Below, piece by piece: positions 8,331 through 63,686 of a stretch of 64,000 nt of DNA. The DNA is taken from positions 1 through 64,000 of the forward strand of contig BDIU01000131.1 in NCBI GenBank assembly GCA_002118135.1, given 5' to 3'. The DNA comes from Trebouxia sp. TZW2008. Lineage: Eukaryota; Chlorophyta; Trebouxiophyceae; Trebouxiales; Trebouxiaceae. The stretch's first letter is position 1; every line of letters starts with the position of its first letter. Both the position numbers and the translations under genes were made by a program. The notes under the pieces were generated by a model. That model saw nothing but the letters and a program-made list of their open reading frames with translations, ran no database searches and had not been told where the DNA came from.

Positions 8331-11300
8331 CTCGTAGATAGTGCCAATCTCCTCAGCAGTGTCACGACGGCGAGCTGGACCTCGCTTGTTCTTGCCACTC
8401 TGCATTCATAGGCAAAAAATTCACTCCGCAACTCTCTTGAGGCCAATTGTCAATAACAATATCAACAATCGTAACTACACATGTCAACTCATGTGCTAGG
8501 GGTGTGTGGCCCAAGTCCTATCTTGCCAGGCAGGGTTGTTCTGAGCATCTTTTTAGGGACGTCTGATGCTCAACTTGAGGCCAGCTGTTAGAGACAAATA
8601 ACAAATGTGCCAGCATCCTTTTGCACACCAATTGGTGCATGATGGTCTGAGCAGCAAAAATGACACTTCAGGTCACAACTCCAAGTAGGTTATGCTGTCA
8701 TACCCTGCACTCTGCTCAAAACAGCTCATCCAGAAGTGCCCCATAGCAGCATAGACGCTTTCTGCAATCTCTGTACAAGGGCATGACAAGCACAGGGAGC
8801 AAAGGTACTTACTGCCTCAAAATCGTCCATCTTTCTGTCCTCAGCGTCTTGCTCAGCGTCCAGGCCAGAGACTCCAGAGTAGCCAGGCAGGCGGGTGGAC
8901 CGCACCTGCTGCCCGTCCTCATATACATAGTCCACAGACTTGATCTGCAGCATGTCAAAGGATGACAACCAAGGCTCTCCTGCTCCCATCAGACCATATT
9001 TCATATGATGCACAGATAATCAACTGCACTTGTGAAGGAACTGCTCAAGCATTGGCTGTGCAAAGGAATGCTCCAAGTGTCCAAATCAGATTAACTGTGG
9101 GTTGAAGGTCAACTGTGGATCAAAGAGCTTGCTTTGACCAGAAGAACGATGGTGTGCCCTTGATCTGACAAATCAATGCTGCGCCTGCTTTGTCTGCGTG
9201 TACAGGTAAGGCACAGCATTGCAAGGAGGGTACAAGCTTGCTGGTCAAGTGCTGACTAAAATGGGCAGACAAGTTCCTGACGGCACTTTACATACAGGAG
9301 GAAGACAAGAAAGACACTGAAGCCAGTGCAAGGATTACTACTACACCGGCACAGACTACTCACCGGCTCCTGGGAAGGTCTGAAGGTGAACTCGTACACC
9401 AAGAAAGCAAAGAAAGCTCCAGTGAAGGGCCCAACCCAGAAAATCCAGTGGTGCACCCAATCGCCGTACACCACAGAAGGCCCAAAGGACCGGGCAGCTG
9501 CACAAACCCCAATATTGAGACTGATTACTAACGTTTTCGAGTATAATTGTGCCATCTTGCAGCACAACTGCCGAAAGAGCGAAGCAGGTTCCCACAGCAC
9601 AAGTCAACAGTGCTTAGTTGCAGTCATATAGCCTCAATGACAAGTCCAGGAAGGCAAAAAAGCTGAATCAATCCAGTGAAGATGCGGGCTCCAAGGAGGC
9701 AGTGCTGGACCAAGTCACCATAGACCACAGAAGCCCCAGGCAATCAACCAACTAAGGCACAAACAGGTTGCAAACATCAATGGAAACAGGCAGTACCATG
9801 TACAGATAGCCACAGACATAAAGCAACTATATTTCGGGCAAGAGTACATGCATATCACACACAATATGTATACACACATTAGGCAATGCCAAATTTGATA
9901 GGAGCAACCTGGGGCCTACAATTCCAGTTGCAAAGGGAACGCTGACAGGCAAACAGGCGTACTATATATAGGCAGCCACAAACAAATAGAGTGGGTTCTT
10001 ACGGTTGATGCTGCACCCATCCAGCGCAACTCCAGCCAGATGGCAGATGAACACGGCAAAACCTATGCCGGCAGGGGCAAGAATGGGGAGATGGGCAGTG
10101 CTCTGTGCCCTGGCTTGGTCAGTGGCAGTGAAGACGACGAAGACCAGAACAAAGGTGAGCAGAGCCTCCATGAGCCAGCCAGCACTTGTAGGCAAGCCTG
10201 AGAGCAGCCTGTTGCACCCACCCTTGGCTGCTGCAAAACCTGCCTTGTGTGTCTGCAAGCAGAAAGACAATCAGTCAGGAGCCTGTGGGCAAGCACCACA
10301 AGCTGAAAGGCAAGCCTGTGAAGCAATCTGTTGCATCCTCACTTTACTGCTGCAAAGTATGCTTTGTGTGCCTGCTGGCAGAAGGGGCTGTAGGTGAGAG
10401 GAACAATCAGGAGCAGCGATAGAAGAAGAGCTTTGAAGCTCTGAGCAACCTGTTGCACTTGCTTATTGCTTCGGCTTGACTGAGACAACAAGGACAAGTG
10501 CGACAAGGAAGGGGAGAGGGATAGACCCAGGTGCAAACAGATATGCTGAGCCTGTGTTGGCAAAGAAGGCATTGTTGCTCTACCTGTTATTGTCAATACG
10601 CTCTACATGCGTAGACAAAAATGCATGCTAGTTGGGCTCAAAGGTCTTGCTAGGTACGTATAGTCCCCGAGTGATTTGCTCTGAACAGGGTTCAACACCA
10701 TGAGGCCTTGCTTGCAGATTGTACAAGACAGTCGGAGGTGTGAGCTGTTATAGAAAGACGCTTGCATTGCAGAGTCATGCAGGCAACAGAAGGCAAGCTT
10801 TGGTATGGTGACTTACTGCAAAGACTAGAGCTGAGCCTGTGATAGCTCCAAGCAGTTGCATGACCACATAGGTGAGGAAGCGCTGCACACTGATCTTCTT
10901 TGCCAGCATAAAAGCCAGGGAGATGGCAGGATTGATATGACCGCCTGCACACATTGTTTTTTGAATGGTGAATCGATACAATGCTTTATGTGTGCACGTT
11001 GCTGGCTCATTGCCATGCATGATAGACAGTCTTGATACCCAGAACTGCGCATGTGCAACTAGCTGACTCTAATGTAGCTTGCACCTTCCCATTGCACTGC
11101 ACATGAGATTACAGCTGTAAATGTGCATACATTGCGTGCTTTGTGTGTTGCATGTCAACTTTTGAGTACTCCAATGTGGATGCTTTAGACTGTTTGCATC
11201 TACATCATGTTTTTGCTTTAGCTGTTGCTGCAGCCAACAACTATGAACGCTATTGTTGCAGTGTCTGCCACGCTCTATGCAATGTCTACGCCATTCACAG

Positions 11301-12539
11301 TATGCTCACATGGCTGACTGGCTTGCAAGTATTTGCAGCACGATTTGCAAGCACAAAGAGTCCAGAGCACAAGGTGGCAATACAAACAAGGATCATTGCA
11401 ACTCTTGAGAAGTTTGTGGTATTGCTTGATGATAACTGCAACAACATGCAACAGAAAGAAGCTGGGCAACCAAAAGGATGGAAGGTAGCTCGATAAGTAA
11501 TCATAATAAATGTGTACACTTTCCAGCACATGTGCTAGGTGTGTGTAGCCCAAGTCCTGTCCCGCCAGGCCGGCTTGTTCTGGGCGTCACAATAAGGACG
11601 GTTGTTCAACACGCAAAAGTCTGACAAAACGATCTGATTCCATATCTTCCTATTGACCCCGTGGGTTTGGAAGGTAGCTGGATATATGCATATGGACAGA
11701 GGAGCTCACCACTGAAAGCTGCAGCCACATACACAAGCACAAAGATGGTGAAGCCAAAGGAAGTGGCAATGGACAAGACCCTTGAGTTGTCCAGCAGACA
11801 GTCAGTGGGGGTTGCTGCAGGCACAACACACGATACAGTCAGTTGTGCTTTGCTCACACGTGAATGCCAGGAAGAGTCAACTTCACACAGAGGCCCAGAA
11901 ATGCCCGCATCTTGGCATGTGAGAGAATTGCAGCTGTAAAAAGGGTTGTGGTCGACTGATGGTCACAGTCTGCAAACGAGGCAATGAAAGCTGCTGTTAT
12001 ATGTGGCAAACAACAAAGCTGTTATCTGTCTTCAAATAGTTGCGCTTACCTCAAATCTGATTTCACTGGTGTGGAAGTGCAGCAAATATGCATTGATTGG
12101 TTCCTGATCAAGTTCCGTGCGCTTACAGTAAGAAGCACGATGCAGCAAGTGTCCTTGTATCAAGGTTTTGGTGTACCTGTGGTTCCTCCAGAAGAGCCTG
12201 TTGCTCCTGTTGTTCCACCTGAGGTATCTGTGGTGGAGCATCCAAAGACAATGGATCCAGTTGCTAGGTACAGGAACAAAAGGGTGCAGAGGTATTCAGT
12301 CCAAAGAGCCTGCAAGAACAAAACCCACCATCAGTAAAAATGCATTTAAAGTCTGAGAGGACACCAAGGTTTTGCCAGAGTCTTTGCAGAGTATCTGTGA
12401 ATACCTTCAAGAATGAGCCAGTGACTGGCTCAAAGAGCCTGAGCTTCTCCCTGAAGTATGGGATCCTGCCTTTCATTCTTGGCACAAAGCCACCTCCTTC
12501 GGTCCGAGCATTGACGTGGCCATTCGGTTGCGTCGGCAT
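8331..12539 (-). CDS. aquaporin (MIP family), PIP/AQP1-like water channel; 3' end unresolved
   Basis: Eight exons are proposed: 12405-12539, 12177-12309, 11710-11814, 10817-10944, 10003-10252, 9364-9497, 8813-8944 and 8331-8399. They give 362 aa before a further, unidentified terminal exon; all phases match. Both half-helix signatures are intact: SGGHINPAIS in exons 3/4 and CSINPARSFG across exons 5/6. TM1 is in exon 2 (YLCTLLFLYLATGSIVFG), followed by an unusual Gly/Thr-rich first extracellular loop. The selectivity-filter positions read Phe (GFTIF), His (VFICHLA), Cys (three before NPA) and Arg, the combination seen in orthodox water channels such as AQP1. A long charged C-terminal tail (exons 7-8) contains RRRDTAEEIGTIYE, possibly for trafficking or phosphorylation. 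Introns 4 and 5 contain decayed copies of the following exon. Water transport across a plasma or vacuolar membrane is inferred from the family. Confidence 0.88.
8440..8575 (-). repeat. SINE-like dispersed repeat, copy 1
   Basis: In minus orientation this shares the core GCCTGGCAAGATAGGACTTG and ...GGGCCACACAC...TAGCACATG with four other copies in the window. It appears 5'-truncated and ends in an AT-rich tail. It lies in aquaporin intron 7. Confidence 0.7.
9650..9745 (-). pseudogene. decayed copy of aquaporin exon 6 5' edge
   Basis: In intron 5, upstream of real exon 6, the minus strand reads SVVYGDLVQH, then a diverged stretch matching SVVYGDWVHH and the following TM segment of exon 6. Substitutions destroy the hydrophobic helix. 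It is in the same orientation as the real exon. Confidence 0.7.
10310..10372 (-). pseudogene. decayed copy of aquaporin exon 5 5' edge
   Basis: An acceptor-like CAG is followed by AHKAYFAAVK, stop, GCNRLL. This parallels THKAGFAAAKGGCNRLL at the start of real exon 5 (10252). The in-frame TGA shows it is not a usable exon. A third, weaker match lies near 10430-10465. Confidence 0.75.
11493..11626 (-). repeat. SINE-like dispersed repeat, copy 2
   Basis: Minus-oriented near-full-length copy in aquaporin intron 3. It starts with GTCAGACTTTTGCGTGTTGA and carries the core GCCTGGCGGGACAGGACTTG and the palindromic TAGCACATGTGCTGG. The tail is ATTTATTATG. Confidence 0.75.
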
Positions 12540-13437: not shown

Positions 13438-16400
13438 TTAGTTTACTGAGTGTACTCCCTCCTTGTAGCTGTCATGATGATCACCTCTTGCATCGTGCCC
13501 CTTGCTTTCGCTCTTGTCAGTTGCACCAGCCTCAAGGTTTTCAGCAATCTCATCAATCCTCTTGAACTGCCAAGGCCACCGGTAGTTGTACAGGAATTGA
13601 CGGTGGTCAAAGCGGTGGTCGTCTGGGGAGTAATTTTCTGCATGGTATGCTGGCGTCAGGGTGGTTGCCTTGTGCCTGTTCATGGAATAGTACCTGCAGC
13701 CAAAAAACCCATCTTGACTTACCTGAAGGCACATTGCTGCTACGACGTCTGCATGGGCTCAGATGTTCACATGCATATTGCAAAGCAGTCAGCAAGGACG
13801 CCATGAATTGCTTATGTGCTACGCAGCTCACAGGATCTGAGCATGCCTGAGCAAATTCATGTTTGTAAAGCTCCTGGCCAAAAGGGTGTTCTGGTGATGA
13901 CAATTAGACATTAAGGCTAAAAAGAGTGTGCTGACTGTATTTGCACATCTGACTTTTATTGCAGCAGTCTTGGCATTCGCAGGGGTGCTGTTGTGCAAAT
14001 TCCCACCAAGTGCATAAGCAATGCAGAGACAAAATGGCAGTAGTTGCTTCTTGTTGCCCATTTTGGAAACAACAGAGGGCAAGAGCACTGCAGCATGACT
14101 GCAATTCAAGCATGTTGGCAGCTTCACAAACCTGAAGAAGTCCTTGACTCTCTTGGCAATGACATGGGGCGGGTACTTGCCCTTCCAGGTGACTAACAGG
14201 CTTCTGAACATGCTGACTGGACCACAGTTGCTGACCTTCCTCAGTTTGCCATAGATGCTGAGCTCCTGCAAGCAATTGCAACAGCAATGTCACAACATGC
14301 CAAGCACACTAGCATTTGATTTTGCGTGGTGCAATGCTCGATCAAGACAGTAAGCTTCAGAGCAACCATCAAAGCAACTGTGAGACGCTGAGGTGCATTG
14401 CATGCTTCGAGACCTAAGCTTTGTTCATGTTGTACGGCTGTCACTGTTGTGGCCACTGCTGGTGCTGCTGCTGCTGTGATTGCTGTGTTTGCTGCTGCTC
14501 CTGCTGCCATTGCTAATACTGCTCATTCAGCCCTGTGCTATGTGTCACATCAAAAGCTCCCATGACATTGCATCAAGGCACAGACTATGGTTTCTCTTCT
14601 CTTTCTGCTCCAAATCGCTGTGTTATTACAATCCCAAGCTCCCATTGATTAAACACCTTGATTGCTGCCTCATGGGCAGGGTTGTACAGACCGATGACCC
14701 TCAAATATCTGGCCCATGAGCAGAGCCTTCAGCAATAAGGCTGGCTAGCAGACAAACAGGCAGTTAAACACAAAATGCACAGGTTTCAGATGCAGATGAT
14801 GACAGAGAAGCATCAAGGGAAGGGGGTTTCAGGCGTACATCATACGTCATGCCCATGTCCTGCTCATCTGTCTGTGCCTCTTCGCCTTCTCTGATAGGTT
14901 CCAGCTCAGCGCTGGGAGGTGCAGCCACAACACTCCTGAGCTCTGAGTAGCCGAGGTTGTCAGCAGCCCAGTACAGGAACCTCCTGATGTCAGTTTTACT
15001 TATGCCCCCTGTGAAGGCAGAAGCAACGTTGTTGAATGCTTGCTACTTGCCGTAGTGCTGAAAGACATTGCAATGCCCAAAGCGCACAGCAATGCATAGT
15101 TGTGTCTACCTGCTTCTGCCAGCTGTGCATTTCAAGACACTGTGCATGCGTCAAAGTGTGTTGATGCCATCTCTACAGATACTTCACCAGCACTACTCAG
15201 CTGGTGGATGCCTCCATAGCTTTCAGTGCGCATCAAACATGCAGATTGAATTGCCAGCGCCATGCATACGGTCTCAGCATATTTGATCGCGTCCTGTGAC
15301 AGAGATGACAAAGAACTGCACGCTTCAGCTACTGCACCGTGTGCATCGCAAGTTATAGTTTGCTATGTGAAGACTTCTCTACTGGTCACATGCTACTAAC
15401 ATAATACCGCAGGGCAAGCACAATAGTGAGTGAAAGGCAAGTACTGGATTTATGCCACCTCGTAGCATGCCTACCAATGGGGTTGACATCAGCGCTGCTG
15501 CAGTCGTACTTGGTGAGGTAGCCTCTGAGGCCCTCATCCACATTGGCACTGCCAAGAACCAGCAGGAACCCGCTCCTGCATCAGCGTGCCTGTCTGAAAG
15601 AGGTTTTAAGCATGCCTGAGTGCAGGTATTCCCAGACTAGGGTTAGACTGATCCTACACTAGAATGCACCATTGAAGCAGCTAAGGATCAGCAGAAAGTT
15701 GCTCGTGCAGCAGCATACCTCTCAGACAAAAATACAAGGACAGTGGCCAGATCAAGGGCAAACTGATCAATGCTACCAGAGTGACAGACAAGTCCCTGCC
15801 CTTAGGCATCATGACATGTGCGTCAACAACTTTTACAAGGCCTGATGCGTCGAGCTTGCAATTGCTGACCTCTCGCGCACCCAGGGCATGAGCTGAGCCA
15901 GCAGGAAGGCCAGCACCATACGCAGCCGTGCCTGGATGTTCTGCAACGCCAGATTCTCAGCATTGCTCCCTCCATCCGCCTGCACATGCGCTCTGTTTGT
16001 TTTGTGTTGTTCTTTGTGCTGTGTTGCACCTGTAGTCAATGAGCTGCAGCGTCAGCTTCTCTGCATTGCTTCCTCCATCCACCTGCAGACAAGTTTTGCA
16101 GTACGGCAGATTTGGCATGGCGTGTACAGTTTGCAGGGCCGTGTTTCTCATCCCTGCAGTTTGACTGTTTCTGTGTGTTTGACTTGTGCACGCTGGGCAG
16201 ACTTTACACAGCATTGCGTTGATCTGTCCGTGCGTCGATGACCAAACCGTGCATTGATGCATGAGGCAACAATCACATAGACCTCACGACTGGAGGACAC
16301 TCTTTTACAGGGCTTAGTGCTGTGCAGCTCAACACAAGCAAAAGTCCCTGTCTGAATCTTGGCGTTCTACCTGATACGCTCAAAAAGCTTTGCCATGGTA

Positions 16401-19400
16401 TGAATCACCATGTCAAGTTTGACATGCAGGTGATGTGCGGCGATCTGTTTGGCTAGGTTCCTGGCTTGGGAATTGATTGCAGAGCGTGACTCTACATCTT
16501 GTTCGCAGGCTTTGATGCACTGCTGCAGGATTTAAATACAGCCATTTTGCATCCACATAGGTCTTACCCTGAATCTTGGTGTTCTGCCAGTGATCATCTC
16601 AAAAAGCTTTGCCATGGCATCAATCACGATGTCAACTTTGACATCCAAATGATCCGCACCAATCTGTTTAGCCAGATTCTTGGCCCTGTTCTTGGTTTCG
16701 GAGCCGCTGTTGACTGTTCCCATGTAGACAGTGGTGAAGATGCGGTTGGCCAGCTCTTGAGCTGTGCCAATCTTCTCGCCTTCCTTGTATTGTCCAACTC
16801 TGCAGTCAGCAATTGCAACAGTGATCTGTTCCAACTCAGCTCGAAGATCTTTTGCCGTAGCTGCCATCACAAGGTCACCATTGACGTCCAGATGATCTGC
16901 ACTAATTTGCTTAGCGAGATCATTGCCTCAGTTGTTGATGCCAGGGCTGCTGTTGTCTATTTCCATGTAGACAGTGGTGAAGATGTGGTTGGCCAGGTCT
17001 TGAGCTGGGCCAATCTTCTCTCCTTCTTTGTACTGTTCGACTCTGCAGCAAGTAGTTCCACCAGTAGTTCCACCAGTAATTTGCTGATGATCAGCTCAAG
17101 AGCTCGTTCATGGCGTCCATCACAATAACAACCTTGACATCCAGATGATTTCGGCCTGACCATCATGCAAAAGCTTTAATTAGCGCGTTTTCTGCAAGTT
17201 TGCAAGTTTGTGCATGTTTTGCAGCAGCCTTTTGCAAACATGCATGCAGGCATGATCAGCACACCTTCTGGCATCAGCCTGGTACAGTCATGCTTTCATG
17301 AGGCAATCCCAAGCATGACTCCAGAACGCACAAGTATCACATGGCCCACCTTCTGGCGTCAGCTTCCACCAATTTATCTCCAGCGTCCACAGCCTTAGTC
17401 ACCAGCTGAGTCATGCAGCCCACAATGGCAGCTGTGGCACTGCTGTCAGCACCGCCGCTAAGAGGCAGCATGTAACCTGACGCTCCTGACCTCCTCAGAT
17501 AGTCCCACAGCCAACAAGCAGGCCCTGCATGCGAGCTCAAACCTGCTGTGATCCCTACTCTAGGAACTCATTTGCTAAGCTTTTTGTTTGTATACCACGC
17601 TGCTGTCAGCACCGCCGCTAAGAGGCAGCATGTAGCCAGAGGCACCAGATCTCCTCAAACAACCCCACAACCAACAGGCAGGCCCTGCATAAATGCACAG
17701 ACTTGATTCAGGGACTGTTGCCCCTCTGCAATAGTTGATTCAAAATTCCAGCCTGGGAACACGCTGGAGAATGATACAAGCTTGCTGCCAATGGATCTGA
17801 GAATTGAAACGAAATGCAACGTATGAAAGGCAATGCATTGGACCGGACGAGCACGTGATTGCCCCGGTTATGCATCATATTCAGCAAACTTCTGAGATAC
17901 TGATGAGAGCCAGTGCATTCTTCACACAGCATGCATTTGCATCAAATTCTACCCAGAGCACTTTCTTCGTCTGGCTAATGGACAGCTGACCAAAGTTGAT
18001 GTCTTGCCTAGAGTCCTCTTTGACATCAGGTGGAAATGAGTTCTTACCCAGAGCAATTTCCTCTTCAGGGTCATGATATCGGATCTCAATTGGCTGGTTG
18101 GGCAGCTTTTCTGTGTCTTTGGGTAAACATGCCGCCCAGTCAATGTAGACGGTGGGCATGCGCTCTGCCTTGCTTGCCTGTTCTTGCAGGCTGCTGATCA
18201 CTCCTGCAGTACACATAAATCTGCTTTGATATTAATTTCACTGTTTCTTTCAGCCGTGTTTCTGGGGTTAAGCATGCGGCCCAGTCAATGTAGATGTTGG
18301 GCATGTGTTCAGCCTTGCTTGCCTGCTCTTGAAGGCTGCTGATCACTCCTGCAATACAAATGCATGTGTCTCAGGCTGCAACAGGGAACAAAAAGGTTGG
18401 CAGCACAGTAACAATTTTGTCTTGGCATGTGCTCTGCCTTGCTTGTCTCTCAGCTGACAATAGTGACTCCTGCATCACATAGGGACCTTCTTCAGTGATA
18501 GCTACCAGCAAAGCCTGTGTGTCTTCTGAGCATCTGTGTTTTTGGGCAAGTACGCCGCCCAGTCAGACTACAGTGCAGACATGTGCTCTGCCTGGCTTGC
18601 ATGTTCTTGAAGGCTGCTGTTGACGCCTACAATGAGCAGATAAATTGCTTTTGAGGGACTAGGGAGAAGGAGTTGCAGACTGTCAGGACATTCAACATGC
18701 GTGTATGCTGCTTTTCTCATGAATGTGGGCAATATTACCGCAGGCTCTGAGCATATGCTCTGCCTTGCTTGCGGTTTCTTGAAGGCTGCTGATGATTCCT
18801 GCAGTACACATGCATCCCCTTGAGGGCAAGAAAGGGCATCAGTACTGTCAGCGTAAACAGTGGGCATCCCTTTGATGGCAGCTGCCGGCACTGTCATTGT
18901 ACTTTCAGTATGTGTCCTTGGGTAAGCACGCTGTGCATTCACTGTAGACAATGGGCTTGCTTGCTCAGGGATGCTGCTGATGTCTCCTGCAGTCACCATG
19001 CGCAGGGAGGAGGGGAGGGGGGGGAGAGGACAACTTCTAACATCAGGCTGGTTTATTGCACATTCGCAGACAGCAGTTGACTCAAGAGCTGGCAGGCCGC
19101 ACAAGGCAACATGCAGAAATGTTGCAAATGCAGCTGTCTTCAAGTGTACTTGCGCAGAGCTACTCAAATGCAAACCTGTTGGGCACAATAGTGCCCAGAT
19201 GCAGTCCTACAATGCACAATACCGATGAGGCGCACAAGACCACAAATCAACCACCCTATAAGCTAAGTGTAGCTGTCATGTTTGATGTGCTTTCACATTC
19301 TTGGAGCACAATAAACAATCAGTGCTCAATACTGGAACAGCGACTGCATCTTTGGGCATACCTCTATATCGCACAACCTCGTCCAAGTCCACAGTGGCAG

Positions 19401-22400: not shown

Positions 22401-23241
22401 CATCGAGAATCAATACTGTACTCTAACTGCAATGACACCTCTCAGTAAGGACAGTTTGGTATAAGGACAATTTTGTTGATACCCAAAACAGTTATTATCA
22501 CGAGAAGTGATTGTACTTGCAAGTTGACACAGCTCATGCTGTTGCAGAGAGAAGAGAGAAGCAGGAACACCGCAAGACTGCACCTGATATGCATTCCCAG
22601 CAGTGCTCTACAGTGTCCAACTCCTGGAAATGATCCTCACACCCGTACCCTGGCAATTCCAATTCTGGCCCTACCTGTACAGATACAGTGGACTGCATGC
22701 CTGGTTAGTTGTGAATCGCATGCCTACTTAGGCTCTGTGGTCTATGCAGTGGTTTGTATCAGAATGCAGCACAGTTGAGAGTAATAGTTGCCAGCATGGC
22801 AGAGTTGTATAGCTTTGTATTGATGCAGCAGCACAAGCGAATACAGCATGGCTGCAAAGAAAATGGTAAGGAAGCGGATGGAACGTGCCTAAGCTTGTGG
22901 GCAAGATGCAAGAAAGCTCCTGAAATTCTGACATGCAGTGGCAGCAGCAACAGTGTATTGCATGCATACAGGTTGAGGATAGCACAGGACCAAACTGGTT
23001 GGAGACAGTTGATTGCTCCAGTATGTATCTAGCTGGGCCTGCTAACCCTGTCTAACAAACATGTTAAACGAATGAACTGAATGAAAGAATGCATACAGAG
23101 TCTGAGATAGGTTACCCTGTATGTGGCGCCTCTATCCTTTGCAATTTGAATTGACTCCTTCACACGACGCAGATTGCCCTCAAAGTCCATGGCCCACTGG
23201 TCAAGATTGCAAGTGGCCAGTGTGATCAGACGGTGGGACAT
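13438..23241 (-). CDS. glutamine-dependent NAD+ synthetase (EC 6.3.5.1)
   Basis: Sixteen exons are proposed: 23116-23241, 22584-22674, 21968-22031, 21483-21575, 21094-21219, 20709-20826, 20029-20184, 19362-19437, 18048-18203, 17350-17524, 16568-16799, 15870-15979, 15475-15575, 14839-15008, 14132-14265 and 13438-13693 (2184 nt, 727 aa). This is the usual length for eukaryotic NAD synthetase. The N-terminal nitrilase-type glutaminase domain has its Glu ([15 protein letters not shown]), Lys ([13 protein letters not shown]) and nucleophile Cys ([10 protein letters not shown]). Further motifs are SGSHHQ and [15 protein letters not shown]. The C-terminal ATP-pyrophosphatase domain has the P-loop [10 protein letters not shown], then [36 protein letters not shown] and CGPVSMF. 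The enzyme amidates nicotinic acid adenine dinucleotide with glutamine ammonia in the cytosol. Intron 4 uses a GC donor (AG|GCAAGC). Several introns are filled with decayed exon-edge copies. It is divergent from the GH43 gene. Confidence 0.95.
16040..16088 (-). pseudogene. copy of NAD+ synthetase exon 12 5' edge
   Basis: An acceptor CAG is followed by [16 protein letters not shown], duplicating [16 protein letters not shown] at the start of real exon 12 (15979), about 105 bp upstream in the same orientation. It retains an intact acceptor and opening frame, so it is a plausible cryptic splice site. Confidence 0.8.
16325..16490 (-). pseudogene. copy of NAD+ synthetase exon 11 3' edge
   Basis: Downstream of exon 11 the minus strand reads [20 protein letters not shown] and then a frame broken near FERIR. 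This matches [20 protein letters not shown] and FEMITGR of the exon's 3' half. Confidence 0.8.
16862..17165 (-). pseudogene. copies of NAD+ synthetase exon 11 (5' side)
   Basis: Upstream of exon 11, a nearly full copy reads [18 protein letters not shown], then [14 protein letters not shown], then a stop. A shorter, more decayed unit follows at 17060-17165. The real exon reads [19 protein letters not shown]. The copies contain stops and indels. Confidence 0.8.
17575..17695 (-). pseudogene. copy of NAD+ synthetase exon 10 5' edge, including the P-loop
   Basis: CAG is followed by [19 protein letters not shown] and then [10 protein letters not shown], duplicating the first 29 residues of exon 10 (start 17524). 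It diverges immediately after the P-loop. The copy keeps the acceptor and an open frame up to its break. Confidence 0.85.
18240..18995 (-). pseudogene. tandem array of five decayed copies of NAD+ synthetase exon 9 5' edge
   Basis: Real exon 9 starts at 18203 with [17 protein letters not shown]. Upstream copies start near 18348 ([16 protein letters not shown], then IYIDWAACL), 18472 (SKAEHMP, with a stop), 18627 ([13 protein letters not shown]), 18800 ([14 protein letters not shown]) and 18990 ([11 protein letters not shown]). Spacing is about 120-190 bp. Each has an acceptor-like CAG or TAG at its edge, and decay generally increases with distance. Confidence 0.88.
19500..19640 (-). pseudogene. 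two decayed copies of NAD+ synthetase exon 8 5' edge
   Basis: Real exon 8 begins at 19437 with CAG|GGTTCACAGTTCAG (GSQFSVNE). Short copies begin at 19565 (CAG|GGTTTCAAGTTCTG) and 19632 (CAG|GGTCCTGAGTTCAA). Only the first 8 to 10 codons are still recognisable. Confidence 0.6.
20965..21021 (-). pseudogene. decayed copy of NAD+ synthetase exon 6 5' edge
   Basis: CTGCAG followed by GTATCTGGTGTCGTTGCCTG parallels CTGCAG followed by AGATCTGGCTTTGGCGCCTG at exon 6 (start 20826). Similarity fades after about 35 bases. Confidence 0.55.
22055..22345. repeat. tandem duplication inside NAD+ synthetase intron 2
   Basis: Two diverged units of about 140 bp are present, beginning TGTTGTCAGCGTGTTGCCCA and TGTTGTCAGCTTGATGCCCA. 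Each contains CTGCTTCTGT, GAGTCACAAGG and ACATCATA. No exon-derived sequence was recognised in them, so this array is purely intronic. Confidence 0.75.
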
Positions 23242-54000: not shown

Positions 54001-57000
54001 GCTGGGAACTGTGACCACGTTGAGTCTGTATACATTGTACAACTCCTCAGACTCTGTGGATGCTGTGCCCTGCAATAACAGCTTTGTCAGGTGGTGTACA
54101 CAACAGAATAACAAACCCACTCAAATCTGGGCAGGGCAAGCATCCACTCAAAAATGCAAAGACTGTGCGCACACTTGCATGCAAAAGCAATGCCCAACAT
54201 AGAGGCCATTAGCAGCAACAAAAACACATGTTCTTTTAGACTTGCAGCCAACAGCTCAACAGTTTTGCACCAGAGTTAGCTGTGTACCGTCATTCCAGCC
54301 AGCTTGGCGTAGTATCTGAAGAAGCACTGGAAGGTGACGCTGGCCTGTGTAACACTGTCCCGCCCGATCTTGACATTCTCTTTTGCCTCCACTGCCTGAA
54401 TAGGAAGGAAAGAATAAACTCATATGCCTTAGGCAAGATTGACTGCCTATGGGAAAGAAGAAATCGTCAAAACGTGGTAGCCAGCCAATCAGACTGAAGG
54501 CATGCACAAAATTCTGGTGCCAACTTTTTATTTACGCATTTCATCACTGCATCATGGCCTGAACTTTTTCACATGCCCATGCCACAGTCCACAGACGACA
54601 GCCATCACTTGACATGAAGCTGTCGTCCGCTTGATCACAACCAGAAGTATGACAGGTTGTGTAAACTGTGCACATCAACACTCTGGTGCAGTTGAGGCTC
54701 CTAGCCTATAGGCTCAAGAACACAGTGGGTCCCTGCACAGCACTTATTTAGAGTTTGCTTTCAGCATATCAGTTTCTGCCAAGGAAGGCTCACCTGATGC
54801 ATATTGTCCTGCCATCTTGCCCTTGACAGCACATGTCTGGTGCTTCTGATGATGATGTGAAACTTGTTGCATGAAACTGGTGATGGGTTGAAACATACAA
54901 TGCTGACTTTAGTGAGCAAGGGCTCAGCATACCTGATGCATATTGTCCTGTCACCTTGTCCTTGACAGCACATGTCCGGTGCTTCTAATGATGATGTCAA
55001 TCTTGTTGCATGAAACTGTTGATGGGTCGAAACACACAATGCTAACTTTAATGAGCAAGGACTCGGCATACCTGATGCATATTTTCCTGCCACCGTGTCC
55101 TTGCCAGCAACTGTACAATGCTTATATCGATCATGTCCACCTTTTGCACGAAACTAGGTGAAATCCAGCCTGTTGTAATTTGCTGAGGAACCTTCACCTG
55201 ATGCATCTTGTCTTACCACATACTCCTTGCAAGCACATGTGCAATGCTGCTGTTGATGATCTTGATCTCCTTGCACAATTGACGATCTACCCAAATGCAT
55301 CATATGACATCAGTTACCTGATGCATGTTGTCCTGCCACCTTGTTCTTGACAGCACACGTCCAGTGCTTCTGTCAATGATAATGAACATCTTGTGTGAAA
55401 GTGAACACAGTTTCTAAAACAGTAAGATGGATTTGCCGAGGAAAAACATCACCTGATGCATGTTGTCCTGCCACCTTGTCCTTGACATCACCTGCCCAAT
55501 GCTTCTGTTGATGACGACCCCAACTTGGTGTGAGTCCGGAAAATTTCAACCCCAGTATGTTGAATTTGCCAAGCAAGAAGTACCTGATGCATATTGTCCT
55601 GCCACCTTGTCCTTGACAGCACACGTCCAGTGCTTCTGTTGATGATGTTGATTTCCTTGGTGTCCTCTGTCACAATGTAGTCAATGTTCCTATGGAACAA
55701 GTGCTCAGCCTTGAGAGCATTAATGATGAAAGGGCCCCAGGGCTCGTCTGTTTGCCAGACTGCAACTGGATCCAGCCCAGCTTTCAAATGATTCCGCTCC
55801 ACTGCAAATCACAGGTGCAAAGTCAGCATGTCACGAAGTGCATGTATGATTAAATATGGACAACAGGACAATCTTATGAGGGGCGGGGCTGGAATTGCAA
55901 TTCAGTTGCCAGACTGCAGCTGCGTCTATTCCATCTGCGTCCGTCCCAGATTTGTGTTGAATGCAAATAGACAAATTGAAGCAGGCAAATTCAGGCAGTC
56001 ACAACTTTGCATTCTGTGTTCTTGTTGAAGCAGTCGCTGACTTGATGTGTGTGTTTTTCATGCACAGCATCCTTCCTGCTTCCTTTGCTGATTGCAGTGA
56101 ATACAAGTGTGAAACTGAAACCTGCTGGATAATGAGCTTCCGTGCTAAAATCCTGCCAGTTTGCTCGCAGCCATGTGCATACAAAGCACGACATGTCACC
56201 ATTGCACTTTGTGGCACAAAGCAGTTGGTACAGTTTGCCTCGGCACAGTCGTCTCAAAATTCCCCATTCCGCGCTGAAGTCACTTCATCACTCAAACATC
56301 TGCATGAGGAAAGACCTCACCCAGGGCATTGTAGACCTTTGCCAGCCCTCCTTCAGTCAGCGAGGCTTGCTTGGATTTCAGCTCCATGACAAAGTCCCAT
56401 GTCTGCTTCCCTTTGCGCACTTTCTTTGGATTTGATTCGTCTTCAGTATGACCTACCAGCCCAGCAATGACCTGTGCAACAAGAACATTAAAATTGCAAG
56501 TAAACAGAGATGTCTAGACAGAGTGATCTCATTGGCCTGATCTTGAAGATACACAATAAAGAAGTGTTAATGGCAAGCACTGTCCCTCAACAGCCTGATC
56601 TTGAAGAAACCCAATAAAAAAATGTTGATGACAAGCGCTGGTTCTCAACAGCCCAGAAAGTCATCAAGGCAATAGTGACATGTCAGACCATTGCAAGACA
56701 GGGTTGCCAGGCTCTAATACTGACAGTTGAGCTTTGGATGGGCATTGCTAGGTGCATGACACAAGAAAGCAGCATGAAAGACAACGTAAGCAAGGCATAC
56801 CTCTTTTGCAACAGTAAATCTGTCTGAGCTGCTGTCTTTAAGGCCGCTGATGATCATAGGGTTGCGGCAGTCATCAATGAGCAGAGAGTCAACTTCATCC
56901 ACTACTGCATAGTTGAATGGCCTATTGATAGCCTGCAACAACAGAATTCAGCTTTGGACAAATGCTCACATGCACCAAATGAGACCTGCAAAGCGGTAGT

Positions 57001-60000
57001 GAATTTGCTGAGCCTTGGGCAACTCAAGGCTCAGCAAAAGGGCTATCACTTGACCACATGAAGGACTTGCCTGGAATGTTTACATGGCCAAGAGAAAACA
57101 CATGAAAGTATGAAGCAAAGAGCAAGGTAGGGCCGGGGAATGACATTGTTTTGTCTGACTTTCAACACTTGAACATCAGGCGTCCATACTGCGACGCTCA
57201 AGACAAGCCTGCCTGGCGAGATAGGACCTTGTGCTACATATACCTAGCAGTATATGCTGGAACATGCAATCACTAGTATTATTGTTATTACTATTGTAGT
57301 TGTTGTTATTATTACTGTTTTTATTATTATATTTTTTGTTATTATTATTATTATTACCATTGTAATTGTTATAGTTATTGTTGTTATTGTTATTATTATC
57401 ATTGTTGTTGTTATTATTATTATTATTATTATTATTGTTATCATGATTATTATTACTATTACCATTATTATCATCATCATTATCACTATGATGATTATTA
57501 TCACGTTTATTGTGATTATTATCAGGGGCAGCATCAACATGGCCACAGCACAGCAGAGAGGCATGCATGATTTCAGCGCCAGCACCAGTCAGGTGCAAGA
57601 CAAATTCACTGTTCATACTGCAGCTCTGCAGGCCTGTCTGGGCAAGTAGTTAAGGCTTCAAGATGGCGCAATGGTGTAGGCGACGAAACTTGCACATAGC
57701 ATCAAGCTTTTAGTCAGAGACTTGCAATTTAACGAAGCGACCTCACCTACTGTTCTGCATTTGTGCAGGTCTGCTTGTGACGGTGCATGAAGCACAGGGA
57801 TTGTTGTGGTATAGGTGATGTCGCATGCAAAGAGCAAAACAGGATAGTTGCAAAATGCTTTGCTGCGTATCTGCTGATGACACATGCATGACAGAGAGCA
57901 GCAAAACGTCCTCAGCCTCCATTCTGCATCTCTGCAAGTCTGATTGTGGAGGTATGTGAAGCGTAGGGATTGCACTTACAATGTTCATGCTGCCACATGC
58001 CAAGGCATCACTGTCACATAGGTCATGCAACATGTAAACAGCCTTACCGTCCATTCTGCATCTCTGCAAGTCTGGTCATGCAAGTATGTGAGGCACATGG
58101 ATTGGGCCGTGGTTTAGGTGATGTCGCATGCAACAAGTAAAGTAGTAAAGCTGCACAACTGCTTCAGTTCAAATCTACTGATGTCAGGTGCATGACAGAG
58201 AGCAGCAGAGCAGCCTTACCGTCCAATCTGCATCTCTGCAAGTCTGATCGTGAAGGTATGTGAAGCACAAAGACTGTGCCGTGGTGTAGGTGATATCGCA
58301 TTCAAAGGGCTCCTTCCGGTGGCTGACCATTTCGGCCTCTGTAACAATGCCCACGCTCAAGCCCAGAAACTTGAAGATCTTGCCCATCCTGCATTCACAG
58401 TTGGAGTTAACCTTTTTGTCTACATGTTCTGGGGTTGTTTAGAAAGACGTATTGCGCTTTTGCTTTTGTCACAAGACACTTGGATATTCTGCCCATCCTG
58501 CAGGGCAAATCAAAGTGTCTTTCAAGCACAAGCTTCCATCATTTTCCAAGTACTGATGCTCATTTAAGGGCTCCTTCTGGTGGCTGATCATGGCAGCCTC
58601 TGTTACAATGCCAACGCTCAAGCCCAGTAACTTGAAGATCTTGCCCATCCTGCAATTATAAATCTCCTGTTTATCTACATGTCTGGAGGTATGGGTGTTA
58701 TGGGTGGTGTGGATGATGTCACATAAGTGAGGCTCCTTCAAGTGGCTAATCATTGCAGCCTCTGTGACGATGCCCATGCTTAAGCCTAGGAACTTGAAAC
58801 TCTTGCCCATCCTGAATTTAACAGTGATGACATTAGCAAAATGCCCATCCAAGCAAAGGCACTGAGTGAGTGGCTGCAAGGCTTGTTGCAGGAAAAGAAG
58901 GGAAACGCTTTGGCAAGCTTGCTTGCAAGACTGATTCCAAGCGCCGCATGACAGCAATGACTATATGTGCATCAGACTCAGGAAATTGTACTCCTGTGAT
59001 ACACCGCCAAACAGCAAGACAACAAGCAAAAACTCTGCTGGCCAAGCCTAAATGTAGTGATAATACATCAATGCAAGCACACTATCAACATCATCTGATT
59101 TTCGCATGCTGAACATCAACCGTCTTCATCGTGGCGTTCAGAAGCCGGCCTGGCAGGATAGGACTTGGGCCACACACACCTGGCACATTTGCTGGACAGT
59201 GGTAACATTTATTCATTATTGTTGTCAACATCAAGTTAACCTTAACTGAATCGTATAGATGATGGACAAAGAGAGCATGCAAGCAATACAAGCAGACCAA
59301 ACAATTGCATTGCTGCAAAGCAAACACTTACCACTCCCCATCACGCTCAGCAAGGTAGTCATTGACAGTGACCACATGAACTCCTTTGCCCGTCAGGGCG
59401 TTCAGGTAGGTGGGTAGGGTTGCCACAAGGGTTTTGCCCTCACCCGTAGCCATCTCTGCCACTTTGCCCTCGTGCAACACAATGCCACCAACCTGCATCA
59501 TGAGCAATTGATTGAAGCCTAAACGGGCAAGATGCCACTATGAGCAATTCAGAGTTTGCACTGCTCCCGCCGGGCTTGGCTGGGCAAGGACGTGCTGTGC
59601 TCTATCACGCTGTGCTGTGCTGTGCTGTGCTGTGCTGTGCTGTGCTGTGCTGTGCTGTGCTGTGCTGTGCTGTGCTGTGCTGTGCTGTGCTCATGGAATT
59701 TGATGGAAGCTTGAAGGTGTGATGCAATGATGCTTATGCTCACCAACTGTACATTAAGCCACACAGAGCTTACCGCCAGGCTAGAGACTGCACATGCAGC
59801 TGTCGTGGCTGCTGAAGCAAATGAACTATATTGAGCACTGCAAAGTCAGCAGTGGAATACATTGCATGCTTGTTGGGGACTGCTCACCAGCTATGCATCA
59901 AAATGACGTAGCCGCAACACTCTGCTGGACAACTCCCTCACAACAGCACTAAGCAACACACACTGTTTACCAGAAGGCTGAACATGGCCAAGGCAGCTAG

Positions 60001-61338
60001 CGTAGACTGTTGGCGCAAACACACAGTGGTTGCAGTATTGCACAGTCATTGATAATTTATGTTGCATGCTTGACAGCTCACCAGCTGAGCATCAAAGTGC
60101 CGTAGCCGCAACACTGTGCTGGACACCTCCCTCACGACAGCACTGAGCAACTCACTCTCCACTGGGAAGCTCTTACTTGCACATGCAGCTGCCATGGGCT
60201 ACTGTTGCAATTGTCTACAATTGTGAATTCAATGTGGAATGCATTGCACGCTTTGTGGGGATTGCTCACCAACTGTGCGTCAAAGTGACGTAGCCGCAAC
60301 ACTCGGCTGGACACCTCCCTCACAACAGCAAAAGCCTCCACAAGCAAGCTTTCAAGAGTAGCGCCGCGCTTGAGCCGCTGCCTGAATTCTTGCGTCTTGG
60401 CTTTGAGTTGATCATCTGACAGTTGTTGAAGTGCTGGCTCCGCAGCATTGATCTTGTTCACGGTGTCAAAATACCTGCAGCGGACAGTGAATTTGGGTGA
60501 TGCCAACCGTTTGAGATGATCATCTGGCAGCTTTCAAAGGGCTAGCTCCCCAGCATTGATCTTGTTTACAGAGTCAAGTACCTGCAGTGGACATTGAAAC
60601 GAGCTGATCTTGATTACAGTGTCAAGACACCTGCACATGATAGTGCGCTGTGGTGATGAATGGCATGTGCGCTGATGTGGAAGGTGAAATGCTTTTACAG
60701 ACTGATCACTGACAGGTGACATCAGTGGTCTGGAATGTGCTATCCTAGATGAGTATGTTGCAAATGACCACATCTGAATCACAGTGGCATTAGGGCGAGT
60801 GGCGTGGAAAGATACCACGCCGCATGCATTGACATCTACAGTAGAGTTGGATGTGTCTTGCAAACAAGACAGAGAAGAGTGCTTGAGTCAAATGGAGAAG
60901 CACAGGCTGCCATACCCAGCCAAGGCTCGCTTCTTGCCGTCTGTCAAGCCTTCTGCGTGATGCTTCCAGTGTTCAGGTATTGCAGCCTTGTCAAAGCTGA
61001 TTTTGCTGAGCTTGGTTTTGCCAAAGTTCAACGCCTGCAGCAGCTTCAGACTTGATGCACCATGAAGGCTTACAGCAGGAATAATAGTTTGGATATACTG
61101 CTTGTTCAGTGATCAGCGCATATCGGCTTGAAATTCAGTGAGCAACGGCGGCCTTGCTTACCTCCAGCACAGAGCCTAGTTTGGCACGAGGAGCAACACT
61201 TCTGGTTGCATGGGCACCGTCCCGTGAGCGCCTTGACTGAGCTTGTATTGTGCGACACTTCTGTGCTTGACCGGGCAAGCTTGTGCGCAAGGGCCGGCAA
61301 CTTGAAACGCTGAGCGCTTGTGCCCGCGCGCTATGCAT
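42003..61338 (-). CDS. secA: SecA preprotein translocase ATPase, probably chloroplast SECA2-like
   Basis: Twenty-three exons are proposed: 61162-61338, 60916-61034, 60270-60474, 59332-59492, 58220-58388, 56801-56932, 56321-56471, 55584-55801, 54288-54395, 53699-54069, 52626-52849, 51621-51942, 50801-51077, 49781-49961, 48964-49205, 47722-47810, 47498-47548, 46976-47322, 46304-46512, 44883-45049, 43896-43962, 43232-43313 and 42003-42406. They sum to 4473 nt (1490 aa) and every junction is in phase. Exon 1 is a Ser/Arg/Ala-rich transit-like leader; an in-frame stop precedes its ATG. Motor motifs are [10 protein letters not shown] (Walker A), [11 protein letters not shown] (Walker B), [34 protein letters not shown] and [20 protein letters not shown] (motif VI, Ala where Gly is usual). 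The scaffold reads [13 protein letters not shown] and [14 protein letters not shown] 115-codon Ser/Pro/Gln-rich exon 18 is an insertion. No C-terminal zinc motif is present. Introns are filled with exon-edge copies. Confidence 0.92.
42581..42715. repeat. tetranucleotide microsatellite (GAGT/GGGT)n
   Basis: Imperfect GGGT, GAGT and GGGA tracts occur in secA intron 22, including an uninterrupted GAGT-type run at about 42648-42680. They produce spurious Ser/His/Leu/Thr repeat frames on the minus strand. Confidence 0.9.
42950..43085 (-). pseudogene. two copies of secA exon 22 3' edge with donor
   Basis: Exon 22 ends CAAGAATTCAAGCTAGAAGC followed by AG|GTACTG at 43232. Downstream units near 43052 and 42977 read CAAGAGATCAAGCTGGAAGC then AG|GTACTG, and CAAGAGATCAGGCTAAAAGC then AG|GTATTA. 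Confidence 0.8.
43330..43390 (-). pseudogene. short copy of secA exon 22 5' edge
   Basis: ACATCAAGTCTACAGCATGC upstream of exon 22 repeats ACGTCAAGTCTACAGCATGC (TSSLQHA) of the exon start. The acceptor is lost. Confidence 0.65.
44060..44780 (-). pseudogene. three copies of secA exon 20 3' edge with donor
   Basis: Exon 20 ends at 44883 with [15 protein letters not shown] and then GTAGGG. Downstream units at 44622-44680 ([16 protein letters not shown]), 44418-44470 (strongly decayed) and 44065-44115 ([14 protein letters not shown]) carry the same edge. Spacing is about 200-350 bp. Confidence 0.82.
45150..45990 (-). pseudogene. array of about seven copies of secA exon 20 5' edge with acceptor
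   Basis: Exon 20 starts at 45049 with CAG|GCGAAAGTTGCAGCGCAT ([18 protein letters not shown]). Upstream acceptor-like starts lie near 45192, 45337, 45473, 45616, 45690, 45832 and 45972. Each is followed by a variant of AAGTTGCAGCGCATAG and GCAAGAGACTGCAAATGGCA. Spacing is mostly about 140 bp. Confidence 0.85.
46789..46915 (+). repeat. SINE-like dispersed repeat, copy 3
   Basis: The copy starts TGTCTGATTTTCAA and carries the core GCCTGGCAAGATAGGATTTG and TAGCACATGTGCTGG. The tail is ATGTAATGAATTACTACC. It lies in secA intron 18, opposite to the gene. Confidence 0.75.
48010..48195 (-). pseudogene. two copies of secA exon 16 5' edge
   Basis: Exon 16 (start 47810) reads [17 protein letters not shown]. 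Upstream copies read [16 protein letters not shown] (start near 48062) and [14 protein letters not shown] (start near 48189), each preceded by an acceptor-like or near-acceptor sequence. Confidence 0.85.
48544..48870 (-). pseudogene. three copies of secA exon 15 3' edge with donor
   Basis: Exon 15 ends at 48964 with [21 protein letters not shown] minus its first residue, followed by GTATGT. Copies end at 48786 (identical peptide, GTCAGT), 48610 (one change to [15 protein letters not shown]) and 48544 (only [10 protein letters not shown] remains, GTCAGC). Spacing is 178, 176 and 66 bp. Confidence 0.9.
49260..49345 (-). pseudogene. copy of secA exon 15 5' edge
   Basis: [17 protein letters not shown] upstream of exon 15 duplicates [17 protein letters not shown] near the start of the exon (49205). 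Confidence 0.8.
49490..49725 (-). pseudogene. two copies of secA exon 14 3' edge
   Basis: Exon 14 ends at 49781 ([13 protein letters not shown]). Downstream units near 49650-49720 ([13 protein letters not shown]) and 49490-49560 (more decayed) repeat the edge and the adjoining CATGATGTATGACGTACAAG region. Confidence 0.82.
50100..50530 (-). pseudogene. decayed copies of secA exon 14 5' edge
   Basis: Exon 14 starts at 49961 with [20 protein letters not shown]. Upstream units around 50110-50205, 50285-50345 ([20 protein letters not shown]) and 50470-50535 keep GAGGGTGGA-type edges and variants of the exon text with substitutions and stops. Confidence 0.72.
51180..51305 (-). pseudogene. copy of secA exon 13 5' edge
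   Basis: [20 protein letters not shown] then KLFHSGQI upstream of exon 13 duplicates [20 protein letters not shown] then KLFKNDEI at its start (51077). The acceptor (CAG|GTGGCATCGG) is preserved. Confidence 0.88.
52000..52440 (-). pseudogene. three copies of secA exon 12 5' edge
   Basis: Exon 12 starts at 51942 with [20 protein letters not shown]. Upstream copies start near 52106 ([19 protein letters not shown], then [11 protein letters not shown]), 52272 ([19 protein letters not shown]) and 52440 (decayed, with a stop). Spacing is about 165 bp. Confidence 0.88.
52490..52615. repeat. short tandem duplication in secA intron 11
   Basis: GTGAAGAGGATGG, GGACAAGTCATGGGCATGTC and AAGTGGTGA blocks repeat two to three times at about 55 bp. 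This repeat contains no recognised exon sequence. Confidence 0.75.
52880..53200 (-). pseudogene. two copies of secA exon 11 5' edge
   Basis: Exon 11 starts at 52849 with [17 protein letters not shown]. Copies start near 52989 ([14 protein letters not shown], then a stop) and near 53200 ([17 protein letters not shown]). Confidence 0.8.
53281..53375. repeat. pentanucleotide microsatellite (CAGCA)n
   Basis: A perfect (CAGCA)11 block at 53321-53375 is preceded by 40 bases of degenerate GC-rich units. It lies in secA intron 10. Confidence 0.95.
54790..55530 (-). pseudogene. tandem array of six copies of secA exon 8 3' edge with donor
   Basis: Exon 8 ends at 55584 with [20 protein letters not shown] then HQ|GTACTT. 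Further CATCAG|GT edges occur at 55453, 55317, 55198, 55072, 54933 and 54794. Spacings are 131, 136, 119, 126, 139 and 139 bp. Translations remain recognisable: [60 protein letters not shown] and others, with scattered stops. The array fills most of the 1.2-kb intron 8. Confidence 0.93.
56535..56650. repeat. tandem duplication in secA intron 6
   Basis: Two units of about 60 bp share CCTGATCTTGAAGA, CAATAAA and CTCAACAG. No exon-derived sequence was recognised. Confidence 0.75.
57153..57530 (+). repeat. SINE-like dispersed repeat, copy 4, with long (ATT/GTT)n tail
   Basis: The body (57153-57267) has GTCTGACTTTCAACACTTGA, CAAGCCTGCCTGGCGAGATA and TATGCTGG. It is followed by 260 bases of imperfect ATT/GTT trinucleotides, as expected for an expanded retroposon tail. 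It lies in secA intron 5. Confidence 0.8.
57745..58105 (-). pseudogene. three copies of secA exon 5 3' edge
   Basis: Exon 5 ends at 58220 with [18 protein letters not shown] and then GTAAGG. Downstream units near 58050-58105 ([12 protein letters not shown]), 57925-57990 ([17 protein letters not shown]) and 57760-57810 ([16 protein letters not shown]) repeat the edge at about 130-170 bp. Confidence 0.88.
58555..58815 (-). pseudogene. two copies of secA exon 5 5' edge with acceptors
   Basis: Exon 5 starts at 58388 with [20 protein letters not shown]. Copies start near 58649 ([20 protein letters not shown]) and 58809 ([20 protein letters not shown], then [12 protein letters not shown]). Both keep CAG|GATGGGCAAG. 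Confidence 0.9.
59094..59224 (+). repeat. SINE-like dispersed repeat, copy 5, with target-site duplication
   Basis: A full copy from TCTGATTTTCGCATGCTGAA through GCCTGGCAGGATAGGACTTG and CATTTGCTGG ends in an AT-rich tail (TTTATTCATTATTGTTG). It is flanked by the direct repeat TCAACATCA at 59085-59093 and 59225-59233. It lies in secA intron 4. Confidence 0.82.
59611..59690. repeat. pentanucleotide microsatellite (TGTGC)16
   Basis: Sixteen perfect units lie in secA intron 3. The reverse complement, GCACA, is a rotation of the CAGCA motif at 53321-53375. Confidence 0.97.
59880..60150 (-). pseudogene. two copies of secA exon 3 3' edge
   Basis: Exon 3 ends at 60270 ([18 protein letters not shown] and then GTGAGC). 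Downstream units near 60079-60150 and 59886-59960 preserve GTGAGGGA, TGCGGCTACG and the donor GGTGAGC, with changes in the last codons. Confidence 0.85.
60540..60640 (-). pseudogene. two copies of secA exon 3 5' edge with acceptors
   Basis: Exon 3 starts at 60474 with CAG|GTATTTTGACACCGTGAA ([14 protein letters not shown]). Copies start near 60583 ([14 protein letters not shown]) and 60631 (LDTVIKIS), each after a CTGCAG or GTGCAG acceptor. Confidence 0.88.
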
Positions 61339-62834: not shown

Positions 62835-63686
62835 TCAGCGTTTAGCTCCCACCGGCGTCTGCACGTTCGCGGCCTTGGCGTCGAACTCAGTGCCGGTGTT
62901 GTCAGCGTTCACTTCGGGTGTTTTCAAAGCTGGCGACTCGGCAGGCAGCACAGCCTCTGACTTCGGCTTTTTGGCTTTGCCCTGTGAGCTTTGTGCAGCG
63001 CTAGCTTTCACTTTTTTGCCGGCTTTTGCACCAGGCTTGCCGGCTTTCGCAGCAAGCTTTGGTCCATCCTGCTTGCCGAAGCCTTGAGACTTGCCACCAC
63101 CGCCAGCAGCCTGTACACAGATAGCAAGCTGTTAGCCAAGTCATACTTGCTTTCACCACACTGCTATACGAAAAGACAACAGTGCAGATTAGCTTGCCTT
63201 ACACAGCAAAGAAACACTTGGTCAACACATGATGATTTTGGAGTCACACGCTGAGAGCATACAAGGTTTGTCATGGCTTCACGTTGTTGTGTCAAGCTGC
63301 TTGAGTGGTGATATCTTGCCCAGCTTAAAGATCTTTTGACAAGATACAACAAAACAGTCAAGACGTACGACAAGCATTCTCAATCAACACATGAACAGCA
63401 CAGATATAAATGTATGTGTCCAGGGAAAAGTGAAGAAAATAGTAGAACAGTCGAGGAACCTGTATGATCAGCACAATGAAAGCACAGGTGATTGTCTACA
63501 CGCAGATGTCTCACCTTGCTCTTCATAGCCTCATACTGTTGCGTCAAGCTGCTCAAGCGATTCTCTGCTGCCTGGCGAGCGCTGACTTCTGCATCTTGGA
63601 CCTCTGCCAGCTGCAGCTGCAGTTTGGAAACCACATCTTCTGCATCAATTCTTGCTGTGCGCTCCTCTTCCAGATTCTTCCTTGCC
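62835..63686 (-). CDS. coiled-coil protein with basic disordered tail, 3' part only
   Basis: Two exons are recognised. The penultimate is 63515-63686 (57 codons plus one base), and the last is 62835-63110 (92 codons with stop). They are joined by AAG|GTGAGA and GTACAG|GCTGCT in phase. The penultimate exon is a heptad-repeat coiled coil (EEERTARIDAEDVVSKLQLQ, then LAEVQDAEVSARQAAENRL). The last exon begins with a Gly run and is Lys/Ala-rich (KLAAKAGKPGAKAGKKVKA), ending in an acidic-neutral stretch and VQTPVGAKR. More 5' exons must lie beyond the right edge of the window. The combination could be a kinesin-type, golgin-type or structural tail; the family cannot be named from this fragment. Confidence 0.75.
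63266..63308 (-). pseudogene. copy of the coiled-coil gene exon 3' edge
   Basis: SSLTQQREAMTN in the intron downstream of the penultimate exon duplicates SSLTQQYEAMKSK at that exon's end (63515). The donor has been lost. Confidence 0.8.

Follow-up and report, generated by a model that had tools for sequence, protein, structure and literature searches.

Short direct local duplications and copies of exon edges in the introns of a Trebouxia-like genome

Known local duplications and the genes compared

Close direct repeats and short local tandem duplications of eukaryotic genomes have reportedly been described by Achaz et al. 2001, Thomas et al. 2004, Messer and Arndt 2007 and Vaughn and Bennetzen 2014, and partial gene segments are also said to be duplicated in place, while the copies described here are absent from the single mature message observed. 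Here we analysed the window, i.e., the whole stretch of 64,000 nucleotides of contig BDIU01000131.1, for which a first-pass annotation had proposed, as a rule for the whole window, that introns grow through tandem copies of their own exon edges. Like close direct repeats, the duplicates found are directly oriented and closely spaced, outnumber inverted pairs and decay with age, and their kind is already known; what is notable is their frequency (21 of 22 ten-kb samples contain direct pairs, density being measured in this genome only), their bounded step of ~150 bp and how many splice sites they leave intact but unused. The proposed observation was partly confirmed and its interpretation partly supported: short direct local duplication is probably frequent throughout this genome with little or no dependence on exon edges, the exon-edge rule being mainly its by-product.

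In vertebrates, the parts of Pace et al. 2009 (PMC2671141) available to us describe repair-mediated proximal duplication, in which, as here, a nearby copy of a ~150 bp segment is found (median 147 bp in human), some copies being exonic and two full duplicated exons showing no detectable constraint. According to the same parts, near-tandem copies were excluded and 4 of 824 donors were partial exon/intron segments, whereas 25 of 88 exon sides carry copies here. The accessible sections of Ma et al. 2016 (PMC4974935; citing Hellsten et al. 2011) report that a tandem duplication involving splice sites creates a new intron, while our cases lengthen an existing one, and that gene structure was unaffected by an 83-bp tandem duplication within an intron. 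None of the literature matches listed reported algal introns with exon-edge arrays (most subscription journals lying outside the search), no report of such duplication at a like density in an alga was found in the literature searched, and a term count found no ‘tandem’ in the main texts of two Trebouxia genome papers (PMC11523091, PMC12712428). The system provides a concrete route for intron lengthening without transposons; with about a quarter of the tested exon edges bearing intact or decaying duplicates, it opens tests of spliceosome choice among near-identical sites, and also of the factors that determine how long local duplications are.

The window was taken to belong to Trebouxia or close kin: the NAD synthetase query matched best the contig-derived protein P0001 and next Trebouxia sp. 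C0005, and the genome (68.5 Mb, with 48-52% G+C in the 22 ten-kb stretches sampled) resembles published Trebouxia genomes, given as 63-74 Mb and ~50% G+C in the parts seen of PMC11523091 and PMC12712428. Because P0001 (800 aa, encoded on a contig of 2,944 bases) is identical at 800/800 residues across 17 exons spanning 10.1 kb, with GT/GC-AG junctions, this contig very probably represents a spliced transcript of the window's species, and the glutamine-dependent NAD+ synthetase gene (NADS) therefore has 16 introns with exact junctions. The window SecA gene was read by splice-aware alignment to P0121 (562/1016 identical), and several of its junctions rest on this relative, which is 55% identical; those of GH43 were placed from P0241 (69% identical). 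A fourth gene, SecA1, lies on another contig (locus L025, G000 C192:40501-50500) and was chosen as a SecA paralogue, not for repeats; it resembles cyanobacterial SecA, with 330/506 residues identical to Gloeomargarita SecA and 11 exons read. The four genes give 88 exon sides, lower-confidence SecA junctions included. The genome sample consisted of 22 ten-kb stretches, 17 on contigs taken singly and five consecutive on one contig.

Local duplication across the genome and at exon edges

Self-comparison of the window (a local pair having an offset of 40-1500 bp and E<=1e-4) gave 75 direct local pairs and 0 inverted ones. The 22 stretches held 175 direct vs 11 inverted local pairs, the latter in 5 stretches, and among 5192 60-mers of the genome sample 332 had a direct and 19 an inverted copy, compared with 2/112 direct in a 5-kb E. 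coli control. Duplicate coverage is uneven, reaching 29% in the introns of the three window genes vs 8% in the rest of the window, and no local pair was found in window positions 1-10000. Duplicated bases increase with intron length (r of 0.65, 0.69 and, for four introns only, 0.91); as the genes studied are long-intron genes, they are enriched for local duplication. The earlier proposal that introns lengthen by recurrent local duplication of units able to span a splice junction is supported.

The step of these duplications is narrow. When overlapping pairs from the window and the 22 stretches were grouped into families, 123 were obtained, and the 70 two-copy families displayed a median offset of 155 bp (5-95% range 79-255 bp, maximum 499), offsets up to 1500 bp being accepted; in the 22 stretches, only 2 pairs lay more than 2 kb apart. 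This limit probably reflects the mechanism, because introns should tolerate longer duplications, and a step of ~150 bp would resemble a nucleosome or an Okazaki fragment in length. The median share of the offset taken up by copies is 58%. In 34/53 spaced pairs (an upper figure, some arrays holding other copies in the spacer), the flanks are still similar in the way expected of tandem units, and in the SecA exon 7 array, which is head-to-tail, copies precede diverged versions of the same intron stretch. Such arrays and residual similarities would favour tandem duplication followed by uneven decay, while the 19 pairs lacking residual similarity could be spaced repair insertions. A general rule that copies end at splice junctions was also considered, and in-register intronic similarity in several arrays speaks against it.

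At the exon sides, matching whole exons of the four genes revealed 52 copies in the adjoining introns of 25/88 sides, 35 of them extending to within 4 nt of the splice junction. As had been claimed, NADS, SecA and GH43 carry such copies, all in direct orientation: 10 at 5 exon sides, 24 at 11 and 4 at 2, respectively. An aquaporin case also stood, as a single pair, and six other aquaporin-like loci displayed a direct copy at 4/36 exon-segment sides and 0 inverted. The stretch with a putative pseudouridine synthase holds direct pairs at a putative exon edge and stands as a candidate case; the array announced in a coiled-coil gene was not upheld, its best direct pair being 31 nt long (E=0.008). 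The rule does not hold window-wide either, since 63/88 sides have no detectable copy in the adjoining intron and the first 10 kb lack any local pair.

The copies belong to their own intron. Under a stricter test of 51 edges (NADS and confident SecA junctions), 14 matched their own intron with a score of >=40, none did so with the intron reversed, and the best score in the other NADS or SecA introns compared was 31. At the SecA1 locus, a score of >=40 was attained by 6/20 edges within their own intron, by 0 when that intron was reversed and by 0 in the remaining introns of the gene. Pooled, 20/71 edges had a copy, with no own-intron match inverted and none in the other introns compared. Each edge copy resembles one exon only, while the donor and acceptor used by the intron come from different exons.

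Decay of the copies followed the expectation of the first-pass annotation: 31/52 carry a frameshift or an in-frame stop (stops being scorable in 48). Among 34 NADS and SecA copies, differences from the exon at codon positions 1/2/3 numbered 107/97/192 of 835/846/847 sites, a pattern close to that predicted for a neutral copy beside an exon changing mainly at third positions. Unused splice sites were indeed left behind, GT or AG being retained in 26 of the 35 junction-reaching copies; since ~27 would be expected neutrally from the 12.1% divergence at codon positions 1 and 2, the decoy sites are, as far as this sample shows, neither kept nor purged. The copies thus look like neutral debris, judging from their sequences. 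Coding constraint on them was rejected by codon positions, stops and frameshifts, and protein-level conservation, suspected from a few peptides, was not upheld by the pooled counts. That the copies are not constitutive exons holds for NADS, in which all of them are left out of the transcript-sized P0001 contig (one isoform).

At all five arrayed NADS sides, this transcript-level evidence shows that the first donor and the last acceptor are used. The absence of any polarity violation, on which the earlier interpretation relied, holds as an observation; as a mechanistic rule it falls, because exons were defined by the conserved protein, and polarity is a requirement of an unchanged protein (a selection filter) with no bearing on the mechanism.

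Origin of the copies

The explanation we favour supposes that short direct local duplications, with a step of ~80-250 bp, arise by slippage or by repair synthesis with local re-copying, at positions little or not tied to exon edges. Selection would remove those changing the protein (duplicate pairs internal to coding sequence were not seen, with fewer than one per gene expected), and intronic or junction-spanning ones would be tolerated as long as splicing keeps to the upstream-most donor and the downstream-most acceptor, which leaves the protein unaltered. The surplus exon edge would stay in the intron and decay neutrally, its decoy sites being ignored through exon definition, and exon-touching copies, because only one of their two members drifts freely, would be recognisable for longer and so appear over-represented. 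A narrower version, in which a genome-wide, almost always direct duplication with a fixed, nucleosome- or Okazaki-like step of ~150 bp (rarely above 250) continually seeds introns with splice-competent edge copies, the neutrally decaying decoys being ignored and the outermost pair picked by exon definition, is tentative and rather doubtful in our view; if true, the genome would be a natural mass experiment on splice-site choice.

That splice junctions are instead preferred origins of duplication (e.g., through transcription- or R-loop-associated breakage near splice sites), with introns consisting mainly of edge units, we judge unlikely. Outward copies within 500 bp were found for 23/88 edge 60-mers (26%), compared with 198/1228 (16%, upstream) and 247/1228 (20%, downstream) of intron-interior 60-mers (P=0.07, interior 60-mers overlapping and not being independent), and purely intronic pairs are common. 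With each array counted once as a family and the exon map slid at random, junction-spanning families agreed with random placement in NADS (2 vs 2.8 expected) and GH43 (2 vs 1.7) and roughly so in SecA (8 vs 5.8); at the level of intron/junction pairs, NADS gave 4 vs 3.6. When the null was limited to configurations leaving one copy in the intron, expected pairs became 4.1 (NADS), 10.2 (SecA) and 6.8 (SecA1, with 15 pairs, the stretch being trimmed). A decay simulation, for which we chose the indel rate seen in the copies and ages drawn evenly, predicted 1.2-1.6-fold better detection where one member of a pair is conserved; the pooled 1.3-fold excess would be about what such slower decay beside a conserved exon predicts, SecA1 alone lying above that range. 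Moreover, exon bases covered by copies stay flat at 25-29% from the edge to 90 nt, and introns are less covered near exons (12-20% within 100 nt vs 45% beyond 300 nt). A strong hotspot at exon edges was thus rejected by the 60-mer rates, simulation, placement null and flat coverage, with the pooled excess standing contrary; we conclude that edges are duplicated much like other positions, a modest true preference being possible, and the earlier claim of edges as preferred substrate keeps a modest excess that lies within the simulated detection bias and supports it weakly at best.

Several results nevertheless weigh against duplication uniform along the genome, and some of them are what an edge-specific process would produce. 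Pooled over the four genes, 19/28 families span a junction vs 14.2 expected (P=0.018), an excess driven by SecA1 (7 vs 3.9, P=0.007), and at the pair level SecA and SecA1 each gave 16 intron/junction pairs, vs 8.3 (P=0.011) and 6.6 expected, pairs within an array not being independent. Acceptor sides bear copies more often than donor sides (17/44 vs 8/44, P=0.057), a bias not predicted by uniform duplication. Many acceptor-side matches begin <=25 nt from the AG, extending only 5-24 nt into the intron, while SecA exon 11 and some SecA1 copies extend further, and the intronic flanks of copies in some arrays have diverged more quickly than expected. The E. coli control also holds one direct local pair, and residual tandem similarity is absent in 19/53 spaced pairs.

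The last point, together with the partial coverage of the offset and the closeness of the step to the human repair median given in the parts seen of PMC2671141, is what would be left by repair-mediated capture of nearby DNA (synthesis-dependent strand annealing), giving spaced copies instead of true tandem duplication. The residual tandem similarity in the other spaced pairs, the clear head-to-tail arrays (SecA exon 7 included) and the scarcity of inverted copies argue the other way, and we consider this route possible, though less likely than not. Far less probable is a role of the copies as alternative or mutually exclusive exons, or as regulatory decoys maintained by selection. Many of the retained splice dinucleotides lie in a consensus-like context, CAG|GT is intact in all six SecA exon 7 copies and some copies, such as that of NADS exon 11, retain the peptide; however, mutually exclusive or tandem duplicated exons keep frame, splice sites and mRNA presence, whereas here most copies are broken, codon positions and splice-site retention fit neutral expectation, and no NADS copy occurs in P0001, one isoform beside which minor forms are possible. 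Introners, or a different mobile element with splice sites of its own, to which the many intronic repeats with splice-like ends might point, are the least credible source: introners show similar sequences across unrelated introns, whereas here 0/51 and 0/20 edges scored >=40 in the other introns compared, all from the same few genes, and the copies are direct and specific to each array. Introners were rejected on this absence of shared sequence among the introns compared.

Positions of the copies and other features of the window

Positions of the genes and copies are given in Table 1.

Table 1. Genes and local copies located in the window
Feature	Position	Strand	Remarks
NADS gene, 17 exons/16 introns	13441-23534	-	P0001 alignment; Pfam CN_hydrolase and NAD_synthase on P0001
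SecA gene, fast-evolving copy, ~15 conserved exons	48960-61005	-	several junctions uncertain; splice-aware alignment to P0121; Pfam SecA domains on P0121
GH43 gene, 5 exons	24304-27690	+	alignment to P0241, 214/310 identical; Pfam Glyco_hydro_43 on P0241
NADS exon 10, acceptor-side copy	18256-18348	-	real edge 18203; AG kept in nearest copy
NADS exon 10, further acceptor-side copies	18533-18619, 18748-18793, 18911-18966, 18424-18448	-	exon-intron match
NADS exon 11, acceptor-side copy	17600-17684	-	real edge 17524; AG kept
NADS exon 12, acceptor-side copy	16836-17042	-	real edge 16799; in-frame stop; second copy 17088-17149
NADS exon 12, donor-side copy	16352-16465	-	real edge 16568; GT lost, stop and frameshift
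NADS exon 13, acceptor-side copy	16044-16080	-	real edge 15979; AG kept
SecA exon 7, six donor-side copies	54794-55514	-	real donor after 55584; includes 55198-55273; GT in 6/6; TRF also finds tandem array
SecA exon 2, two donor-side copies	59888-59948, 60082-60142	-	GT kept
SecA exon 2, acceptor-side copy	60510-60577	-	real edge 60474
SecA exon 4, two acceptor-side copies	58566-58649, 58704-58811	-	AG kept
SecA exon 4, three donor-side copies	57754-58133	-	real donor after 58220
SecA exon 10, acceptor-side copy	52930-52979	-	real edge ~52845, low confidence
SecA exon 11, three acceptor-side copies	52000-52437	-	real edge 51942
SecA exon 12, acceptor-side copy	51195-51302	-	real edge 51077; AG lost
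SecA exon 14, acceptor-side copy	50106-50196	-	real edge 49961; frame broken; weaker copies 50300-50340, 50644-50700
SecA exon 14, donor-side copy	49668-49710	-	real donor after 49807; GT lost
SecA exon 15, acceptor-side copy	49261-49321	-	real edge low confidence; score at threshold
GH43 exon 2, two donor-side copies	24942-25222	+	real donor after 24806; GT in both
GH43 exon 5, two acceptor-side copies	27121-27346	+	real acceptor before 27467
Aquaporin exon starting near 10250, acceptor-side copy	10308-10383	-	paired with 10190-10264
Putative pseudouridine synthase stretch (name from first-pass annotation), direct copy	31076-31210	-	copy of 31218-31331; Pfam named neither of two open frames scanned

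Pfam left 15 of the 17 scanned open frames of the window unnamed, no tRNA or tmRNA was found in the window, and Rfam gave no match at gathering score. The open frame at 40333-41340 contains four treble-clef zinc finger (DUF4379) stretches. A dense array at 44419-45982, partly of ~143 bp units and with no identified gene, displays the highest duplicate coverage of the 2-kb bins (77%). A dispersed repeat of ~80-150 bp occurs in >=5 copies, in both orientations and with 70-89% identity (8476-8573, 11505-11641, 46778-46925, 57137-57296 and 59094-59213); unlike the local direct duplicates, it is possibly a short mobile element. In addition, pentanucleotide runs (CAGCA and GCTGT) lie in SecA introns at 53281-53375 and 59609-59691, and other short runs were found at 42625-42711 (GAGT) and 57277-57501 (TAT).

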